DNA from: Cloacibacterium sp. TD35 | GTDB lineage: Bacteria; Bacteroidota; Bacteroidia; Flavobacteriales; Weeksellaceae | Length of the DNA stretch: 64,000 nucleotides | NCBI RefSeq assembly: GCF_028864635.1 | Contig: NZ_CP104850.1 | Coordinates: forward strand, 688,001-752,000 | Direction: 5' to 3' | In this document: in pieces, positions 3,038-24,484 of the stretch | Layout of the letters: the number at the start of each line of letters is the position of its first letter | Position numbering within the stretch: the first letter of the stretch is position 1 | Notes under the pieces: generated by a model | What the model saw: the letters and a program-made list of their open reading frames with translations, nothing else | What the model was told of the DNA's origin: nothing | Database searches by the model: none | Program-made: the position numbers and the translations under genes

Positions 3038-3622
3038 ATGTTTTTAGAAAATACAATAAACCACTCAAAACAAAGTGGATGGATGGAAGTAATTTGTGGC
3101 TCAATGTTTTCGGGGAAAACCGAAGAATTGATTCGCAGATTGCGCAGAGCTGAAATGGCTGGACAAAAAGTAGAAATTTTCAAACCGAAGATAGATACTC
3201 GCTATGATGAGGAAGAAGTTGTTTCTCACAATCACAACAAAATTAGAAGCACTCCTGTAGAAAGTTCAAACGAAATTTTACTACTGGGTTCTACTTGTGA
3301 TGTGGTAGGAATAGATGAAGCACAGTTTTTTGATGAAGGAATTATAGAAATAGCTAATCAATTGGCTAATAACGGAATACGAGTAGTAATTGCAGGTCTA
3401 GATATGGATTTTTTAGGAAGACCTTTCGGACCGATGCCTTTTTTAATGGCAACCGCAGAATACGTGACAAAAGTGCACGCCATTTGTAAAACCACAGGAA
3501 ACTTGGCCAACTATTCTATGAGAACTTCTAGCAGCAAAGACTTGGTACAACTTGGGGAAACCGATAGTTACGAAGCCGTAAGCAGAAGAATTTTTATAGA
3601 CGAAGTTTTGAATAAAAAATAA
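3038..3622 (+). CDS. tdk: Thymidine kinase (type II, TK1-like)
   Basis: Phosphorylates thymidine to dTMP in the cytoplasmic salvage pathway. The 194-residue protein has the Walker A region [12 protein letters not shown] near residues 21-32, the Walker B-like [10 protein letters not shown] with the catalytic Glu near 90, and the lasso-region signature [15 protein letters not shown] near 150. The classical second zinc cysteine two residues after AIC is replaced by Thr, and no C-terminal CxxC/H pair is visible, so the structural zinc site seems lost, as I recall for relatives in this family. Its stop overlaps the ATG of murF-alr by one base (TAATG), so the two genes are almost certainly one operon. 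Confidence 0.95.
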
Positions 3623-6069
3623 TGAATTACACCACAAAAGAAATAGCAGAAATTACTCAATCTCAAATTATTGGGGATAAAAATCTGCAAATTCATCATA
3701 TTGCTTTTGACAGCAGAAATATTTATTCTACCCTCAAAACTGCTTTTATCGCCATCAATACTCACAAAAATTCTGGTGAGAAATACATTTCGCAAGCGAT
3801 AGAAAAAGGAATTAAAGTCATTATTTCTGAAAATTTTTATTCAGAATACGACGGAATTACATGGATTATTGTAGAAAATTCTGTAAAATTTCTACAAGAT
3901 TTAGCACATTATCATATTGAAAATCAACCTATTAAAACCATAGGAATTACGGGAAGTAACGGAAAAACCATCGTAAAAGAATGGTTATACCAATGTTTAT
4001 GGAATGAATTTCCAACCGTGAAATCCCCGAAAAGTTTCAACTCACAGATTGGTTTACCGATTTCTCTGTTACAAACTTCAGAGAAACATCAAGTAGGAAT
4101 TTTCGAAGTGGGAATTTCTAAACCAAATGAAATGAAGACTTTAGAAAAAATTTTTTCTCCTAAAATTGGAATTTTAACTCACATTGGAACTGCTCACTCT
4201 TCTAATTTCGAAAATGAACTTCAGCTGATTAAAGAAAAACTGATTCTTTTTAAAAATTCAGAAATTATTATCTATAATGGTGATAATGAGCAAGTTTGTA
4301 AAGAAATAAAAACACAATATTCTGATAAAAAACTGATTAGCTTTGGTCTAAAAACTCATAATGATGTAAAAATTATCTGTGATTATAAAGATAGAAATCA
4401 AGAAATTTTAGTTCAGTATTTCTCGGAAAAATTGAGTTTTCCTGCGAACCAAAGAGACGAAGCTACATTGACCAATGCTTTGGCAGTAATCTGTATTTTA
4501 AAAGAATTTGGTTTTACCAACGAAAAAATAGTTGAAAAAATCAACAATCTGAAAGCGGTAGAAATGCGATTAGAAAGTGTAAATGGAGTTCGTAATAATC
4601 TGATTATCAATGACTCTTTTAACTTAGATTTAGACTCGCTCATTATTGCATATCAGTTTATTAATCAGTATAATAGAGATGAAAAAACCTTAGTTCTTTC
4701 GGATATTTTTGATGTAAAAAATGATGATGTTTCGCTGTATCATAAAGTGGCAGAAATTACCAATCAGCAAAATTTCAAACAGATATTTTTAGTTGGCAAT
4801 CAAATTTCTAGATTTCAAGAAAAATTTAATGCTAAAACCTATACTTTTTCTACCACAAAAGAATTATTGGAAAGCCAACAACTCAATTCCCTTGAAAATC
4901 AATTGATTCTACTTAAAGGAGCTAGAATTTTTGAATTTGAGAAAATAAAATCACATTTAGAACTTCAAAAACACGATACTGTTTTAGAAATAAATCTCAA
5001 TGCCATTCTGCATAATATTAACGTTCATAAGTCATTGCTAAAACCAGAAACCAAAATGTGTGCAATGGTAAAAGCCTATTCTTACGGACTTGGCGGTTAT
5101 GAAATTGCAGAGTTTTTACAACATCATCATATTGATTATCTGGGAGTTGCATACGCAGATGAAGGAGTAGACCTTAGAAAAAATGGAATCACTACGCCTA
5201 TTTTGGTCATGAATCCCGAACAAGGCAGCTATGATGTGATTATAGATTACAATCTCGAGCCAGAAATTTACAGTTTAAGAGTATTAGAACTTTTTGCTAA
5301 CCAATTACAATTGAAGGGAATTCAGCAGAAGTATCCTATTCATATCAAGGTAGAAACTGGGATGCATCGTCTTGGTTTTAAGGAACATGAAATTGATGAA
5401 TTGGTTGAAAATCTTAAAAAATACAATGTAAAAGTTGCCAGTATTTTCAGCCATCTTTCTTCTGCAGACGTTCCAGAGGAAGATGATTACACGATGGAGC
5501 AAATTCACACGTTCCAAAGAGTTTCTTCTAAAATTTCTGAAGCTTTGGGCTATCAACCTATCAGACACATTTTAAATACTGCTGGAATTACCCATTATGC
5601 TGATTATCAATTTGAAATGGTAAGAATTGGAATTGGAATGGTAGGAATTTCTGCCAATCCAAAAGTGAAAAAACAATTACAAAGTGCCGTAACTTTTAAA
5701 ACCGTAATTTCACAAATTTCTGAGGTAAAAGAAGGAGATTCAATTGGTTACAACAGAAAATACAAGGCAGAAAAAGACACCAGAATTGCTACTATTCCCG
5801 TAGGTTATGCAGACGGAATTCCTAGATTAATTGGCAATAAAAAAGGATTTGTAGGCATTCAAAACCAAAAAGTATCCATCGTAGGAAATATTTGTATGGA
5901 TATGTTAATGGTTGATTTACAGAATATTAAAGCCAAAGAAGGAGATGAAGTGATTATTTTTAACGGTAATCCTACTTTGGAAGAATTCTCTGGATATTGC
6001 CAAACCATTCCTTATGAGGTTCTTACTTCTATTTCCAGAAGAGTCAAAAGGATCTACATAAAAGATTAA
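3622..6069 (+). CDS. Bifunctional MurF ligase / alanine racemase fusion
   Basis: An 815-residue fusion of two cell-wall enzymes. Residues 1 to about 450 are MurF (UDP-MurNAc-tripeptide:D-Ala-D-Ala ligase), with the P-loop GITGSNGKT ending near residue 116 and FEVGISKPNEM after it. Residues about 455-815 are a PLP-dependent alanine racemase: VLEINLNAILHNI opens the barrel, the PLP lysine is in MVKAYSYG (Lys484), and the C-terminal PVGYADGIPR and GNICMDMLMVD motifs carry the second catalytic region. Alr makes the D-alanine that Ddl turns into the MurF substrate, so the fusion links two steps of one pathway. This fusion is established in Bacteroidota. It follows tdk with a 1-bp overlap. Confidence 0.95.
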   Translation: MNYTTKEIAEITQSQIIGDKNLQIHHIAFDSRNIYSTLKTAFIAINTHKNSGEKYISQAIEKGIKVIISENFYSEYDGITWIIVENSVKFLQDLAHYHIENQPIKTIGITGSNGKTIVKEWLYQCLWNEFPTVKSPKSFNSQIGLPISLLQTSEKHQVGIFEVGISKPNEMKTLEKIFSPKIGILTHIGTAHSSNFENELQLIKEKLILFKNSEIIIYNGDNEQVCKEIKTQYSDKKLISFGLKTHNDVKIICDYKDRNQEILVQYFSEKLSFPANQRDEATLTNALAVICILKEFGFTNEKIVEKINNLKAVEMRLESVNGVRNNLIINDSFNLDLDSLIIAYQFINQYNRDEKTLVLSDIFDVKNDDVSLYHKVAEITNQQNFKQIFLVGNQISRFQEKFNAKTYTFSTTKELLESQQLNSLENQLILLKGARIFEFEKIKSHLELQKHDTVLEINLNAILHNINVHKSLLKPETKMCAMVKAYSYGLGGYEIAEFLQHHHIDYLGVAYADEGVDLRKNGITTPILVMNPEQGSYDVIIDYNLEPEIYSLRVLELFANQLQLKGIQQKYPIHIKVETGMHRLGFKEHEIDELVENLKKYNVKVASIFSHLSSADVPEEDDYTMEQIHTFQRVSSKISEALGYQPIRHILNTAGITHYADYQFEMVRIGIGMVGISANPKVKKQLQSAVTFKTVISQISEVKEGDSIGYNRKYKAEKDTRIATIPVGYADGIPRLIGNKKGFVGIQNQKVSIVGNICMDMLMVDLQNIKAKEGDEVIIFNGNPTLEEFSGYCQTIPYEVLTSISRRVKRIYIKD

Positions 6070-8829: not shown

Positions 8830-8849
8830 AATGTTTCACGTGAAACATT
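8830..8849. promoter_or_regulatory. parS site 1 (ParB-binding centromere), perfect 20-bp palindrome
   Basis: AATGTTTCACGTGAAACATT is a perfect palindrome whose 16-bp core (8832-8847) exactly fits the bacterial parS consensus TGTTnCACGTGAAACA recognised by chromosomal ParB/Spo0J. It lies 38 bp before mnmG. A second identical 20-bp copy lies just after mnmG. parS sites normally cluster near the replication origin and nucleate ParB spreading and SMC loading. Confidence 0.9.
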
Positions 8850-8887: not shown

Positions 8888-10753
8888 ATGTTATTTAACG
8901 AAACATATGATGTAATCGTAGTAGGAGCTGGTCACGCTGGTTGCGAAGCTGCTGCTGCTGCTGCTAATCTAGGTTCTAAAACCATGCTTATTACGATGAA
9001 TATGCAAACCATCGGACAAATGTCTTGTAATCCAGCAATGGGTGGTATTGCAAAAGGTCAAATTGTAAGAGAAATAGATGCAATTGGCGGTTTTAGCGGA
9101 ATTGTAGCTGATAAATCTGCCATTCAATTCAAGATGCTTAACCTTTCAAAAGGACCTGCAATGTGGTCTCCTAGAACACAAAATGATAGAATGAAATTCG
9201 CAGAAGAATGGCGATATGTTCTAGAAAATACTCCAAATCTTGATTTTTTTCAGGATATGGTGAAATCTTTAATCATTAATAATGGAAAAGTAGAAGGCGT
9301 AATTACTTCTCTAGGTATAGAAATCAAAGGAAAATCTGTGGTTTTAACCAATGGAACTTTCTTAAATGGACTCATTCACGTAGGTGATAAACAGTTAGGA
9401 GGAGGAAGAATGGGCGAACCAAAAGCCTACGGAATTACTGAGCAATTAGTAGATTTAGGCTTTGAAGCTGGAAGAATGAAGACTGGAACACCAGTTCGTG
9501 TAGACGGAAGAAGTCTTGATTATTCTAAAATGGAAGAACAAGCAGGAGACAAAAATCCTCAAAAATTCAGTTATTTAGATACCCCTAAATTAACGAAACA
9601 ACGCAGTTGTTACATTACTTATACTAATGATACTGTACACGAAATTCTAAGAACTGGATTTGATAAATCTCCTATGTTTAATGGTACTATCCAAAGTATT
9701 GGACCAAGATATTGCCCAAGTATTGAAGATAAAATCAATCGTTTTGCGGAAAGAAACCGTCATCAATTATTTGCCGAACCAGAAGGTTGGAATACAGTAG
9801 AAGTATATGTAAATGGCTTTAGTTCTTCATTACCAGAAGATGTACAATTGAAAGCTTTACACCATGTTCCTGGCTTTGAAAAAGCTAAAATTTTCAGACC
9901 TGGTTACGCTATTGAATATGATTACTTCCCTCCTACACAATTAAAGCATACTTTAGAAACTAAATTGATAGAAAACCTATATTTTGCTGGTCAAATTAAT
10001 GGAACTACTGGTTACGAAGAAGCAGCTGGACAAGGTTTAATGGCAGGAATTAATGCACATAACAAAGTTCATGAAAAAGATGAATTTATACTCAGCAGAG
10101 ATGAAGCGTATATTGGTGTTTTAATAGATGATTTAATTACCAAAGGAACCGAAGAACCATACAGAATGTTTACTTCTAGAGCAGAATATAGATTACTTTT
10201 AAGACAAGATAATGCAGACATTAGATTAACTGAAAAAGCATACAATCTTGGTTTAGCTAAAGAAGAAAGGCTAAAAAATATGGAAGAAAAAGTATCTAAA
10301 TCTTCTGAACTTGAAGAATTTTTAAGAGAAACTTCTTTAAAACCTGGTATTATCAATCCTATTCTTGAAGCTAATGAAAGTTCACCTGTAGACCAAGCAT
10401 ACAGAGCAGCACAAATCCTTACAAGACCTAACCTTTCTTTAGAAAAATTAACTGCAATTGATTTCATCAAAGAAAAAGTAGAACAGTATAATGAAGAGCA
10501 GAAAGAACAGGCAGAAATCAATATCAAGTATAAAGGTTATATAGAAAAAGAAAGAGATAATGTAGCCAAATTACAAAGATTAGAAACCATTAGAATACCG
10601 GAAGATTTTGATTTTTCTAAAATTTCTTCTCTCTCTGCTGAAGCAAAACAAAAGCTCAATAAAATTCAACCTAAAACCATTGCACAAGCAGGAAGAATTT
10701 CAGGAGTATCTCCTGCAGATATTAATGTACTGCTTATATTTTTAGGAAGATAG
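8888..10753 (+). CDS. mnmG: tRNA uridine-5-carboxymethylaminomethyl modification enzyme MnmG (GidA)
   Basis: The FAD-binding subunit of the MnmE-MnmG complex, which installs cmnm5 on the wobble uridine of several tRNAs using methylene-THF and NADH. The 621-residue length is normal. The N-terminal dinucleotide-binding motif is VVGAGHAGCEAA at 11-22. Further GidA signatures are SCNPAMGGIAKGQIVREIDA, the catalytic-region Cys in RYCPSIEDK, and LYFAGQINGTTGYEEAAGQG; the C-terminal helical domain ends in SGVSPADINVLLIFL. mnmG lies near oriC in many bacteria, and here it is bracketed by two identical parS palindromes. It has no close co-directional neighbour upstream (203-bp gap), so it probably has its own promoter. 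Confidence 0.97.
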   Translation: MLFNETYDVIVVGAGHAGCEAAAAAANLGSKTMLITMNMQTIGQMSCNPAMGGIAKGQIVREIDAIGGFSGIVADKSAIQFKMLNLSKGPAMWSPRTQNDRMKFAEEWRYVLENTPNLDFFQDMVKSLIINNGKVEGVITSLGIEIKGKSVVLTNGTFLNGLIHVGDKQLGGGRMGEPKAYGITEQLVDLGFEAGRMKTGTPVRVDGRSLDYSKMEEQAGDKNPQKFSYLDTPKLTKQRSCYITYTNDTVHEILRTGFDKSPMFNGTIQSIGPRYCPSIEDKINRFAERNRHQLFAEPEGWNTVEVYVNGFSSSLPEDVQLKALHHVPGFEKAKIFRPGYAIEYDYFPPTQLKHTLETKLIENLYFAGQINGTTGYEEAAGQGLMAGINAHNKVHEKDEFILSRDEAYIGVLIDDLITKGTEEPYRMFTSRAEYRLLLRQDNADIRLTEKAYNLGLAKEERLKNMEEKVSKSSELEEFLRETSLKPGIINPILEANESSPVDQAYRAAQILTRPNLSLEKLTAIDFIKEKVEQYNEEQKEQAEINIKYKGYIEKERDNVAKLQRLETIRIPEDFDFSKISSLSAEAKQKLNKIQPKTIAQAGRISGVSPADINVLLIFLGR

Positions 10754-10759
10754 TAGCAA

Positions 10760-10779
10760 AATGTTTCACGTGAAACATT
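10760..10779. promoter_or_regulatory. parS site 2, identical 20-bp palindrome
   Basis: The same 20-bp palindrome as at 8830-8849, with the exact parS core at 10762-10777. It begins 6 bp after the mnmG stop. Two such sites 1.93 kb apart around one gene are very unlikely by chance for a 16-bp motif. Confidence 0.9.
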
Positions 10780-11821: not shown

Positions 11822-13012
11822 TTAATTATTTATTGCAGCAACTCCTGGAAGTTCTAAACCTTCTAAAGATTCTAACATAGCACCTCCTCCAGTTGAAACA
11901 TAAGAAACTTTATCTGCATAACCATTTTGTTTTACAAAAGCTACAGAATCTCCTCCTCCAACTAAAGAGAAAGCTCCTAATTGAGTTGCTTCGTCTATAC
12001 TATCTCCTAATGCTTTAGTTCCAGCTGAGAAATTCTCCATTTCGAAAACTCCAATCGGTCCGTTCCAAAGAATTGTTCTAGAATTCATAATCACATCGTG
12101 GAAGATTTCTCTAGATTTAGATCCAGCATCCATTCCCATCATGTTTTCTGGAATGTGATAAATATCTACCTCTTCTCTATGCGCATCATTATTAAATTCA
12201 TCTGCAGCAATTACGTCTACAGGCAAATAGACTTTTACATTATTATGTTTAGCTTTTTCTAAAATTTCTAAAGCCAAATCCATTTTATCAGCCTCTAATA
12301 AAGAAGTTCCGATGTTACCTCCTAAAGCTTTAATAAAAGTAAAAGACATTCCTCCACCGATAATTAAATTATCAACAGCTGTTAAAATATTTTCGATAAT
12401 AGTGATTTTAGTAGAAACTTTAGAACCACCCAAAATAGCAGTAACTGGTTTTTCACCGCTTCCTAATACTTTATCTATCGCTTCTAATTCTTTAGCCATT
12501 AATAAACCGAAAAATTTAGTTGAAGGGAAAAATTTAGCTATAACAGCAGTAGAAGCATGTGCTCTGTGAGCAGTACCAAACGCATCATTTACATAAACAT
12601 CTCCTAATTTTGCTAATTTTCCTGCAAATTCTTCATCACCAGCTTCTTCTTCATTATAAAATCTAAGGTTCTCTAGCAATAGAATTTCACCTGGATGAAG
12701 CTCTGCAGCTGCTTTTTCAGCAACTTCTCCTATACAATCAGAAGCAAATTTCACTTCTTTTCCTAATACTTTAGAAACTTCATCTACTATCTGAGAAAGA
12801 GAAAACTCTGGATTTACTTTACCTTTTGGTCTACCAAGATGCGTCATGATAATTACAGAACCTCCATCATTTAAGATTTTATCAATCGTAGGTTTAGCAG
12901 CAACTATTCTGGTATTATCGGTTACTTTTTTATTTTCATCTTGAGGTACGTTGAAATCTACTCTAATTAATGCTTTTTTTCCAGCGAAACTGATATCATT
13001 AATGGTTTTCAT
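11822..13012 (-). CDS. pgk: Phosphoglycerate kinase
   Basis: Transfers phosphate between 1,3-bisphosphoglycerate and ADP in glycolysis. The 396-residue length is standard. N-terminal motifs are [24 protein letters not shown] (phosphoglycerate binding), [10 protein letters not shown] and [13 protein letters not shown]; the C-terminal nucleotide domain has [23 protein letters not shown] and the glycine-rich [14 protein letters not shown]. The start [21 protein letters not shown] is the normal one. Its upstream region is the 660-bp AT-rich gap shared with rpiB. A candidate -7 element lies at 13066-13073. Confidence 0.98.
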
Positions 13013-13065
13013 AAATTTTTTTCTTTTTAAAGTTTTTAGATTATTCTGCTTTTTTTAAAGCTTTA

Positions 13066-13073
13066 CAAATTTA
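13066..13073 (-). promoter_or_regulatory. Candidate -7 promoter element for pgk
   Basis: On the minus strand this reads TAAATTTG (TAnnTTTG class), 53 nt before the pgk start. A -33 element is not obvious. Confidence 0.4.
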
Positions 13074-13099
13074 AGATTTCTAAAATGGCAAAAAGAAAA

Positions 13100-13640
13100 A
13101 TCATGAGAAAAATTTCCACAAACTGACGAAAAACATTTTATAACATATTTTCTTCTTTTTAATAAAAAAAGAAATGAATACTATTGTTGTAGTTGTGAAT
13201 AATGGGGAAAACTATTTTCTAATTTTTTTACGGAAAGAGTTGTAGTGCAATTCATAAGTTTTCCATATTGTAATATTCTCATAATCATATAAATAAATGC
13301 TTTACTAACAATTGTGAATAACTCTTATTTCATACATATATTGAAAAACTTGTTATGGAAAAACTAAAGAATTTGACCTCAAAAAAATATATAAACAAAA
13401 TCTATAATATTGCAAGTTTTTTTCTATTACACAAAAATTCTTTAACTTTTTATTTTATTTAGCAGAAGTTTTAAACATAGTAATTAACATTCTGTTAATA
13501 ATTGTGTAACATTCTATTAAAATACTGTAAATTAGTAGAATACAAATTAAAGTAATTTGCTGAGATTTTCTTAAACACTTGATTTTAAAGCCTATTAAAT
13601 AATTGGATTTTAAAAATTAATCCACAATTCACATTTAAAG
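13100..13640. other. Very AT-rich 0.5-kb non-coding region with DnaA-box-like sites; candidate oriC
   Basis: The 660-bp gap between divergent pgk and rpiB is among the longest gene-free stretches in the window and is strikingly AT-rich. On the minus strand it contains two exact TTATTCACA boxes (13194-13202 and 13313-13321), which fit the DnaA-box consensus TTATNCACA. One-mismatch relatives are at 13112-13120 (ATTTCCACA), 13425-13433 (TATTACACA) and 13618-13626 (TAATCCACA). No reading frame of note is seen. With the parS pair 2.9-4.8 kb away this suggests a replication origin, but dnaA and parAB are not in the window, so this is inference. Confidence 0.45.
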
Positions 13641-13643
13641 TGT

Positions 13644-13651
13644 TAATTTTG
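13644..13651 (+). promoter_or_regulatory. Candidate -7 promoter element for rpiB
   Basis: TAATTTTG, a TAnnTTTG match, 20 nt before the rpiB start. Confidence 0.45.
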
Positions 13652-13671
13652 TAGAAATAATAAGAAATAAA

Positions 13672-14103
13672 ATGAAAAAAATAGCAATCGCCGCAGATCA
13701 CGCAGGCTATGAATACAAGGAATTTGCAAAGAAACAATTAGAAGGAAAATATGAATTGGTAGATTTTGGAACTCATGGTTTAGATTCTGTAGACTATCCA
13801 GATTTTGTACATCCTGCTGCAAGTGCTGTAGAAAACGGAGATTGTGAATTTGGAATTTTATTTTGTGGGAGCGGACAAGGAGTACAATTAAGTGCCAATA
13901 AACACCAAGGAATAAGATGTGCATTAGCTTGGATGCCAGAAATTGCAGAATTATCTCGACAACACAATAATTGTAATATGGTTGCAATGCCAGCCAGATT
14001 TATTGCCAAAGAATTGGCGCTAGAAATCATAGAGAAATTTCTCACCACCGATTTCGAAGGAGGAAGACATCAGAACAGAGTAGATAAAATCACTTGTAAA
14101 TAA
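13672..14103 (+). CDS. rpiB: Ribose-5-phosphate isomerase B
   Basis: Interconverts ribose 5-phosphate and ribulose 5-phosphate in the pentose phosphate pathway. The 143-residue length fits the LacA/RpiB family. IAIAADHAGYEYKE carries the conserved phosphate-contact Asp-His, and the catalytic Cys65 is in FCGSGQGVQLSANK; ACALAW is replaced by RCALAW, and HNNCNMVAMPAR is typical. It is followed by a clean terminator and a 68-bp gap to rnr, so it is probably transcribed alone from the promoter in the AT-rich region upstream. Confidence 0.96.
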   Translation: MKKIAIAADHAGYEYKEFAKKQLEGKYELVDFGTHGLDSVDYPDFVHPAASAVENGDCEFGILFCGSGQGVQLSANKHQGIRCALAWMPEIAELSRQHNNCNMVAMPARFIAKELALEIIEKFLTTDFEGGRHQNRVDKITCK

Positions 14104-23734: not shown

Positions 23735-24484
23735 CTATCTATACATTTTCAGAATAGATTCGTTTAAGGTTTTATAGATTTTTAGTTTTTCTTCATCGGT
23801 TAATAAAGATTCATGAAGTTTCAGCACTTTTTCATCATTTCTGATGGCTGGTCCGGTTTGTGCTAATTTCGGTTCTAATTCATGAATTTTTTGGGTAGTT
23901 TCGTCAATTAATGGTAAGAAATAATCAAAAGGAATTCCCTGACTGTCAGAAATTTCTTTAGCTCTTGTGTACAAATGATTCACGAAATTACAAGCAAAAA
24001 CCGCCGTCAAATGAATGTATTTTCGTTTTTCATCATTGGCAAGCATTACGTTTTTAGAAATCTTTGATGCTAAATTTTTCAAAATTTCTTTGTCATTTTT
24101 GTTTTCTGCATCTATGAAAAATGGAATTTTAGAATAGTCTAAATTTTTTGATTTTGAAAACGTTTGAAGCGGATAAAAAACTGATTTTCTGAAATTTCCA
24201 CTTAATGCTTCACGTGAAACAGAACCAGAAGTATGCGTTACCAAAACATTTTCATTTTTGATGAGAGATGAAACTTCAGCAATCGAAGAATCACTTACCG
24301 AAATAATGTACAAATCAGCAGTAACTAGAGTTTCAGTAGAAAAAGGAATGGAAAATTGCTCTGAAATTTTCTGAAGCTCGGTGGTATTTCTTCCAAAAAT
24401 TTGAGAAATAGGAATTTTAGCTTCTGTAAAAGCTTTTGCTAGGTGAAATGCCACATTTCCAGAACCGATGAGTACAATTTGCAT
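23735..24484 (-). CDS. Rossmann-like / DUF2520 domain protein
   Basis: 249 residues. The N-terminal half is an NAD(P)-binding Rossmann-like fold starting MQIVLIGSGNVAFHLAKAF (GxGxxA motif), with THTSGSVSREAL and VFYPLQTFS in the middle. The C-terminal half is the helical DUF2520 domain, with HLTAVFACNFVNHLY and the AQTGPAIRNDE motif. It resembles 6-phosphogluconate or F420-dependent reductases in layout, but no substrate is known to me. A TAnnTTTG element ends four bases before its ATG, so it may begin a leaderless transcript with kdsC-like and maf. The coding region contains a near-parS sequence at 24206-24221. Confidence 0.85.
   Translation of the reverse strand: MQIVLIGSGNVAFHLAKAFTEAKIPISQIFGRNTTELQKISEQFSIPFSTETLVTADLYIISVSDSSIAEVSSLIKNENVLVTHTSGSVSREALSGNFRKSVFYPLQTFSKSKNLDYSKIPFFIDAENKNDKEILKNLASKISKNVMLANDEKRKYIHLTAVFACNFVNHLYTRAKEISDSQGIPFDYFLPLIDETTQKIHELEPKLAQTGPAIRNDEKVLKLHESLLTDEEKLKIYKTLNESILKMYR
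24206..24221. promoter_or_regulatory. parS-like site with one mismatch, inside the DUF2520 gene
   Basis: TGCTTCACGTGAAACA differs from the parS core only at the third base. It falls in codons for Val-Ser-Arg-Glu-Ala. A single-mismatch site can be a weaker ParB nucleation site; chance cannot be excluded. Confidence 0.45.

Follow-up and report, generated by a model that had tools for sequence, protein, structure and literature searches.

The window analysed here, a stretch of 64,000 nucleotides (positions 688001-752000 of a single-contig genome of 2,595,287 bp, 99.96% complete), raises the question of whether a bacterial chromosome can start its replication in the intergenic gap between pgk and rpiB, as a first-pass annotation made from the letters alone had proposed. 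The genome is close to that of Cloacibacterium normanense, with RpiB and Pgk being 100% and 98% identical, respectively, to the proteins of C. normanense IMET F. We conclude that the pgk/rpiB gap is very probably the chromosomal origin, oriC, and that it is an ordinary DnaA-type oriC whose unusual address is conserved across the family. The computed support consists of the switch in corrected GC skew, the uniqueness of the nearby parS sites, the enrichment and conservation of DnaA boxes, and the distance to dnaA and parB.

DnaA boxes in the pgk/rpiB gap

The gap is divergent and AT-rich as annotated, and its length of about 660 bp was measured as 659 bp, at 701.0-701.7 kb of the genome (Table 1). 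Its A+T content of 0.795 is, as a matter of composition only, at the level of the most A+T-rich 600-bp stretch of the window. On the pgk side, pgk itself and a methyltransferase-like gene (named by eye) separate the gap from mnmG.

Table 1. Features of the proposed origin and its neighborhood (positions counted from the first letter of the window)
Feature	Position	Strand	Basis or remark
parS, exact TGTTTCACGTGAAACA	8832..8847		just upstream of mnmG
mnmG (gidA)	8888..10753	+	named by eye from translation; between two parS
parS, exact	10762..10777		just downstream of mnmG
pgk	11822..13012	-	ORF; ≤5 kb from parS in 21/28 single-contig family genomes
Proposed oriC, AT-rich divergent intergenic gap pgk/rpiB	13013..13671 (659 bp)		boxes; box-rich gaps at same place in relatives
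Likely pgk promoter -7 element	13065..13079	-	TAnnTTTG-like; best conserved block of gap
Two-mismatch box ATTTCCACA	13112..13120	+	related letters there in many aligned gaps
Conserved tandem block of exact TTATTCACA (13194-13202) and neighboring degenerate TTTTCCCCA, same strand	13192..13212	-	23-gap consensus, + strand: GtTgtgaatt.TG.GGA.AA
Conserved facing pair TTTACTAACA-ATT-GTGAATAACT	13301..13323		right arm is second exact TTATTCACA (13313-13321, -)
Candidate unwinding region	13359..13600		composition only; 100 bp from 13359 are the AT maximum of the gap (0.84 A+T); end guessed
One-mismatch box TTATTAACA	13493..13501	-	motif scan
One-mismatch box TAATCCACA (13618-13626) overlapping two-mismatch box CAATTCACA	13618..13633	+	motif scan
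rpiB	13672..14103	+	ORF; ≤5 kb from parS in 18/28 single-contig family genomes
Third parS-like site, one mismatch	24206..24221		inside an ORF

Two exact TTATNCACA boxes had been reported in the gap, and both are present. Of the one-mismatch relatives, said to number at least three, we count just two; the TNCACA core is also preserved at four sites that have two mismatches. The earlier estimate that well under one exact box should occur by chance agrees with 100 dinucleotide shuffles of the gap, which give an expectation of 0.02. Across the genome, TTATNCACA occurs 125 times, compared with 78 times for the reversed control.

Judged within its own genome, the cluster is not unique. Among 19,176 overlapping 650-bp windows, which cover 38% of the genome, one scores higher than the gap (at 485.35 kb, mostly within two ORFs) and three places tie with it. 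In a comparison of 94 intergenic regions, each 250 bp or longer, the gap ranks first by exact boxes (two), equalled by one region at 1.953 Mb, and its count of four boxes with at most one mismatch makes it joint top with three others. We accordingly rejected box density alone as proof of an origin, given the one higher window and the three ties; it is the skew, parS and conservation that are decisive.

Strand asymmetry, parS and the distance to dnaA

GC skew was taken at third codon positions of 712 genes in a sample of 990 kb (38% of the genome), with correction for gene strand. On the plus strand the corrected skew is mostly negative before the window, mostly positive beyond it, and negative again near 1.9 Mb. 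A change-point fit to the 712 genes places the first switch at a maximum-likelihood position of 713.0 kb, with a bootstrap 95% interval of 699.5-737.0 kb near whose low edge the gap sits, and the reverse switch, marking the terminus, at 1.900 Mb (1.889-1.930). Within its resolution, the corrected skew puts the gap at a sign change, as is characteristic of a DnaA-type oriC, and both 16S genes (440.6 kb, -; 1134.8 kb, +) are directed away from it. Some stretches run against the sign of their arm: on the left arm, those at 345, 2425 and 2555 kb are positive, and on the right arm, those at 770 and 1320 kb are negative. Positions 345001-365000 of the genome have a third-position GC skew of +0.407 on minus-strand genes, which is far outside the rest of the arm, along with several long intergenic regions; this is possibly acquired DNA or an unusual gene.

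The minimum of the cumulative skew had been suggested as a check on the proposal, and its outcome is mixed. The corrected skew does switch here within its resolution, and not at dnaA, but the raw cumulative skew (sampled 38%, interpolated) bottoms out near 610 kb within a flat floor that extends over ~590-765 kb, the gap lying ~1% of the total range above that minimum and the running sum of the sampled stretches being lowest at 540-560 kb. Because this floor is so flat, the raw minimum is too blunt to decide, and we rejected the raw cumulative skew as proof of an origin.

The flat floor would also accommodate a true origin at another site in the region, up to ~16 kb on the rpiB side, with the gap being a satellite cluster of DnaA-binding sites. 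The corrected skew lends some support to such a site. In an alignment of six genomes on the gap, negative skew predominates as far as the gap and positive skew past +10 kb, with both signs occurring in the 10 kb between, and the optimum falls on the rpiB side in six out of six (by +1 to +16 kb). Pooling the six puts the optimum at +5 kb, where the log-likelihood nominally exceeds that at the gap by 15.6; our genome, whose separate fit gave 713 kb, has its optimum at +13 kb with a nominal gain of 7.1. Both gains ignore gene-to-gene scatter. However, the offsets vary among genomes, and since rpiB follows the gap in five out of the six they are not independent. Moreover, from 13.3 to 42.9 kb the window is free of exact boxes. 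We read the offset as reflecting a limited resolution of ~10-15 kb, within which an origin slightly toward rpiB still has room.

A further marker is parS, which is expected near the origin in bacteria with a ParABS system. With at most one mismatch allowed, the whole genome contains three parS-like sites, all in the window at 2.2 to about 10.6 kb from the gap, compared with no match for the control. The parS pair had been placed 2.9-4.8 kb away, and these figures hold as distances of the two exact sites from rpiB. The same flanking of mnmG by parS was found by tblastn in G091, G062, G071, G001 and G052. Two exact sites are present in 25 out of the 28 single-contig family genomes, among which a spacing of ~1.9 kb recurs. 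The parS search was positive in 112 genomes, with positions taken from part of these, and the 27 single-contig genomes other than ours were queried again. At least one of pgk and rpiB is within 20 kb of parS in every one of the 28 single-contig family genomes. The best match to the ParB family lies at 1494889-1495422, ~0.8 Mb from parS, so that dnaA is not the only gene of this kind far from the origin: a par gene is as well.

As first annotated, the proposed origin is not signalled by a nearby dnaA. The dnaA domain was found at 1,776,277, which is 1.08 Mb from the gap and closer to the terminus; the gap therefore does not show the adjacency to dnaA/dnaN that is common among, but does not define, DnaA-type origins. 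It would be tempting to place the origin at dnaA all the same, as the numbering of many records implies, because dnaA is generally associated with oriC and 11 out of the 28 single-contig family records start at dnaA. Yet the sign of the corrected skew does not change across dnaA (1.71, 1.77 and 1.84 Mb), and no parS-like site is found there in the whole-genome scan with at most one mismatch. A comparison of box densities had been proposed too, and it stood in one respect, in that the 5.5 kb around dnaA contain no exact box (and five one-mismatch boxes), but not in the other, as the gap is not unique in the sampled genome. An origin at dnaA is hardly credible on this evidence. The separation is not confined to our genome: the dnaA-parS distance amounts to 0.39-0.98 of a half-chromosome in 28 out of 28 single-contig family genomes, a comparison in which 13 out of the 28 chromosome lengths are rounded.

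Conservation of the gap and rearranged genomes

Both pgk and rpiB were found in 116 out of 120 family genomes, and in 92 out of these 116 they are divergent and adjacent, separated by a gap of 510-1098 bp (median 643). An origin beside pgk/rpiB had been called unusual; the address is indeed unusual, but it is not peculiar to our genome, as the arrangement is family-wide. From 46 loci we obtained 23 distinct gaps, after setting aside five without pgk in range, 12 in reverse orientation and six duplicates. Exact boxes number 28 in these 23 gaps, where 1.2 would be expected and the highest total from 100 shuffles is 5. Boxes with at most one mismatch number 124, compared with 29.9 expected and a highest shuffle total of 43. 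These controls ignore that the gaps share ancestry. Exact boxes are present in 18 out of the 23 gaps and absent from the other five. In 14 of these loci, exact boxes occur at 1.89 per kb in the gaps (18 in 9,506 bp) versus 0.18 per kb in other intergenic DNA (3 in 16,684 bp).

The arrangement of the boxes is conserved as well. In the alignment of the 23 gaps, the best conserved block is promoter-like and lies before pgk, and the stretch with the facing pair comes next. Past the promoter-like block there are three box blocks with a consensus of 60-80%, namely the tandem block, the facing pair TTAt.aACAatTgT..aTAA and a block TTaTCCACA (TTATCCACA), the last of which is clear in most of the relatives shown and not recognisable in our genome. 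The gaps of the relatives have a box cluster above expectation, and the 23 gaps share a conserved box arrangement, two hallmarks of an oriC. In G062, a genome of the family, the pgk-rpiB gap measures ~643 bp and has two facing TTATCCACA, and dnaA lies at 0.98 of the half-chromosome. The start of another family record, G109, splits the gap, such that its last base (2768102) is that of the pgk start codon and rpiB runs from 706; bases 1-705 contain one exact and four one-mismatch boxes. It looks as if the depositors had numbered this record from an origin predicted at the gap.

Could the boxes instead serve to regulate pgk or rpiB, or to titrate DnaA in the manner of datA/DARS-type loci, near an origin set elsewhere? 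DnaA boxes are also found at regulated promoters, and the promoter-like character of the best conserved block, probably the pgk promoter, would fit this idea; it contains a TAnnTTTG-like element, which we take to be the -7 promoter motif. However, the boxes stay after rpiB has left, and the long gap stays beside rpiB where pgk has left. Most of the family keeps a gap of 510-1098 bp, and parS and the corrected skew switch coincide at the locus. Regulation or titration near an origin set elsewhere is very improbable.

Rearranged genomes provide the most telling comparison for the origin. Twenty-four family genomes lack adjacent pgk and rpiB, 13 of which were read; in G109 the two genes are adjacent across the end of the record. 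A long gap (543-1206 bp) upstream of pgk is kept in 11 out of the 13 (genera g2, g3, g16 and g33), with an exact box in eight out of the 11 and an exact parS within 5 kb of pgk in seven out of the 11. In two g29 genomes it is pgk that has moved, and a gap of ~590 bp remains beside rpiB with two and four one-mismatch boxes, respectively, and no exact box. In addition to the 23 aligned gaps, 16 gaps upstream of pgk, including genera without rpiB alongside, contain 14 exact boxes, compared with 0.67 expected (largest shuffle total, 3); this set came from 21 stretches after exclusion of three gaps of at most 52 bp and two stretches without pgk, two of the 16 are just 71 and 80 bp long, and an exact box is absent from five out of the 14 long gaps.

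The skew of G071 (g16) turns from one sign to the other between 900-915 and 940-960 kb, at the block of parS, mnmG and pgk; rpiB is 504 kb away from this block and dnaA 0.95 Mb. The 20 kb around the switch are without rpiB and rnr, and keep parS-mnmG-parS, pgk and a 610-bp gap with one exact box. This argues against a true origin elsewhere toward rpiB, as does the poverty in boxes of the other intergenic DNA in the 15-20 kb loci of the 14 relatives, and we consider such a nearby site unlikely. G091 (g20) has a weak, noisy skew, in which negative values at 2.53-2.55 Mb give way to positive ones from 2.57 Mb onward, at the same type of block, the exception being one slightly positive stretch at 2.50 Mb. 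We rejected rpiB as an anchor of the locus: its distance from parS is 54-504 kb in four out of the 28 single-contig genomes, compared with more than 20 kb for pgk in two out of the 28. The better anchor is pgk together with the parS-mnmG-parS block.

Outside the family, pgk lies 2.8-25 kb from parS in five out of six genomes that carry both on one contig; in 10 more, pgk and parS are on different contigs, and 17 out of the 38 genomes of the screen have no exact parS. Out of six out-of-family pgk regions that were read, a long pgk-rpiB gap occurs in G122 alone (577 bp, with four one-mismatch boxes and no exact box), and the remaining five have at most 80 bp upstream of pgk. With one such gap in six regions, the gap as an origin across the wider order is not supported.

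Known origins and the role of the locus

Taken together, the corrected skew, parS, the conservation of a box-rich gap and the box-poor dnaA region support the proposal that the pgk/rpiB gap is oriC. From established knowledge of DnaA and oriC, DnaA, encoded 1.08 Mb away, would bind the tandem and facing boxes and open the adjacent, very AT-rich DNA, whereupon the replicative helicase could be loaded for two forks that would meet near 1.90 Mb. By analogy with known ParABS systems, ParB would bind the parS pair around mnmG and segregate the new origins, its best match being encoded 0.8 Mb off.

The oriC of E. coli is likewise not at dnaA. In E. coli and Yersinia, oriC lies between gidA (mnmG) and mioC, according to the description given with Ori-Finder 2022 (PMC10225481), and the likeness to our locus is an array of DnaA boxes in a gap close to mnmG. 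The differences are that here two parS flank mnmG, a methyltransferase-like gene and pgk intervene, and dnaA lies far out. DoriC 10.0 (PMC6323995) mentions cyanobacterial oriC far from dnaA/dnaN, as in Synechococcus lividus PCC 6715, which belongs to another phylum, has another box motif and is one strain, compared with the family-wide arrangement here. Since the SkewDB description places dnaA within 5% of the skew shift in >80% of chromosomes (PMC8941118), the separation of dnaA from the origin represents a known minority state.

The nearest precedent is Elizabethkingia meningoseptica G4076, for which Ori-Finder predicted an oriC of 649 bp with three boxes at 740,720-741,368, 1.87 Mb away from dnaA at 2,613,273 (PMC8994065); from the same family, the authors also name the genus Riemerella. 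This 649-bp oriC far from dnaA resembles G062 in gap length and in the remoteness of dnaA, and we infer that the predicted region is the pgk-rpiB gap. Unlike our analysis, the pertinent passages of that report give no flanking genes, parS or family-wide conservation. The separation of oriC and dnaA is therefore already known elsewhere and has been predicted in E. meningoseptica. Among the literature matches listed, compared by titles and abstract openings, none concerned an origin at pgk/rpiB, the Elizabethkingia prediction being the closest.

The family thus gains a concrete, testable origin, although its records often start at dnaA. In this family, replichore analyses, vector design and the estimation of growth rates from read depth would go wrong if dnaA were taken as the origin. 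The locus also illustrates cleanly how an initiator gene can stay remote from its origin throughout a family. We speculate, with considerable doubt, that with a family-wide origin tied to the parS-mnmG-parS-pgk block and dnaA (here parB too) far out, dnaA would be copied late, and that this delay in dosage could help to limit re-initiation.

Elsewhere in the window, positions 3622-6069 hold one ORF of 815 aa whose translation, by eye, resembles a fusion of MurF and alanine racemase.
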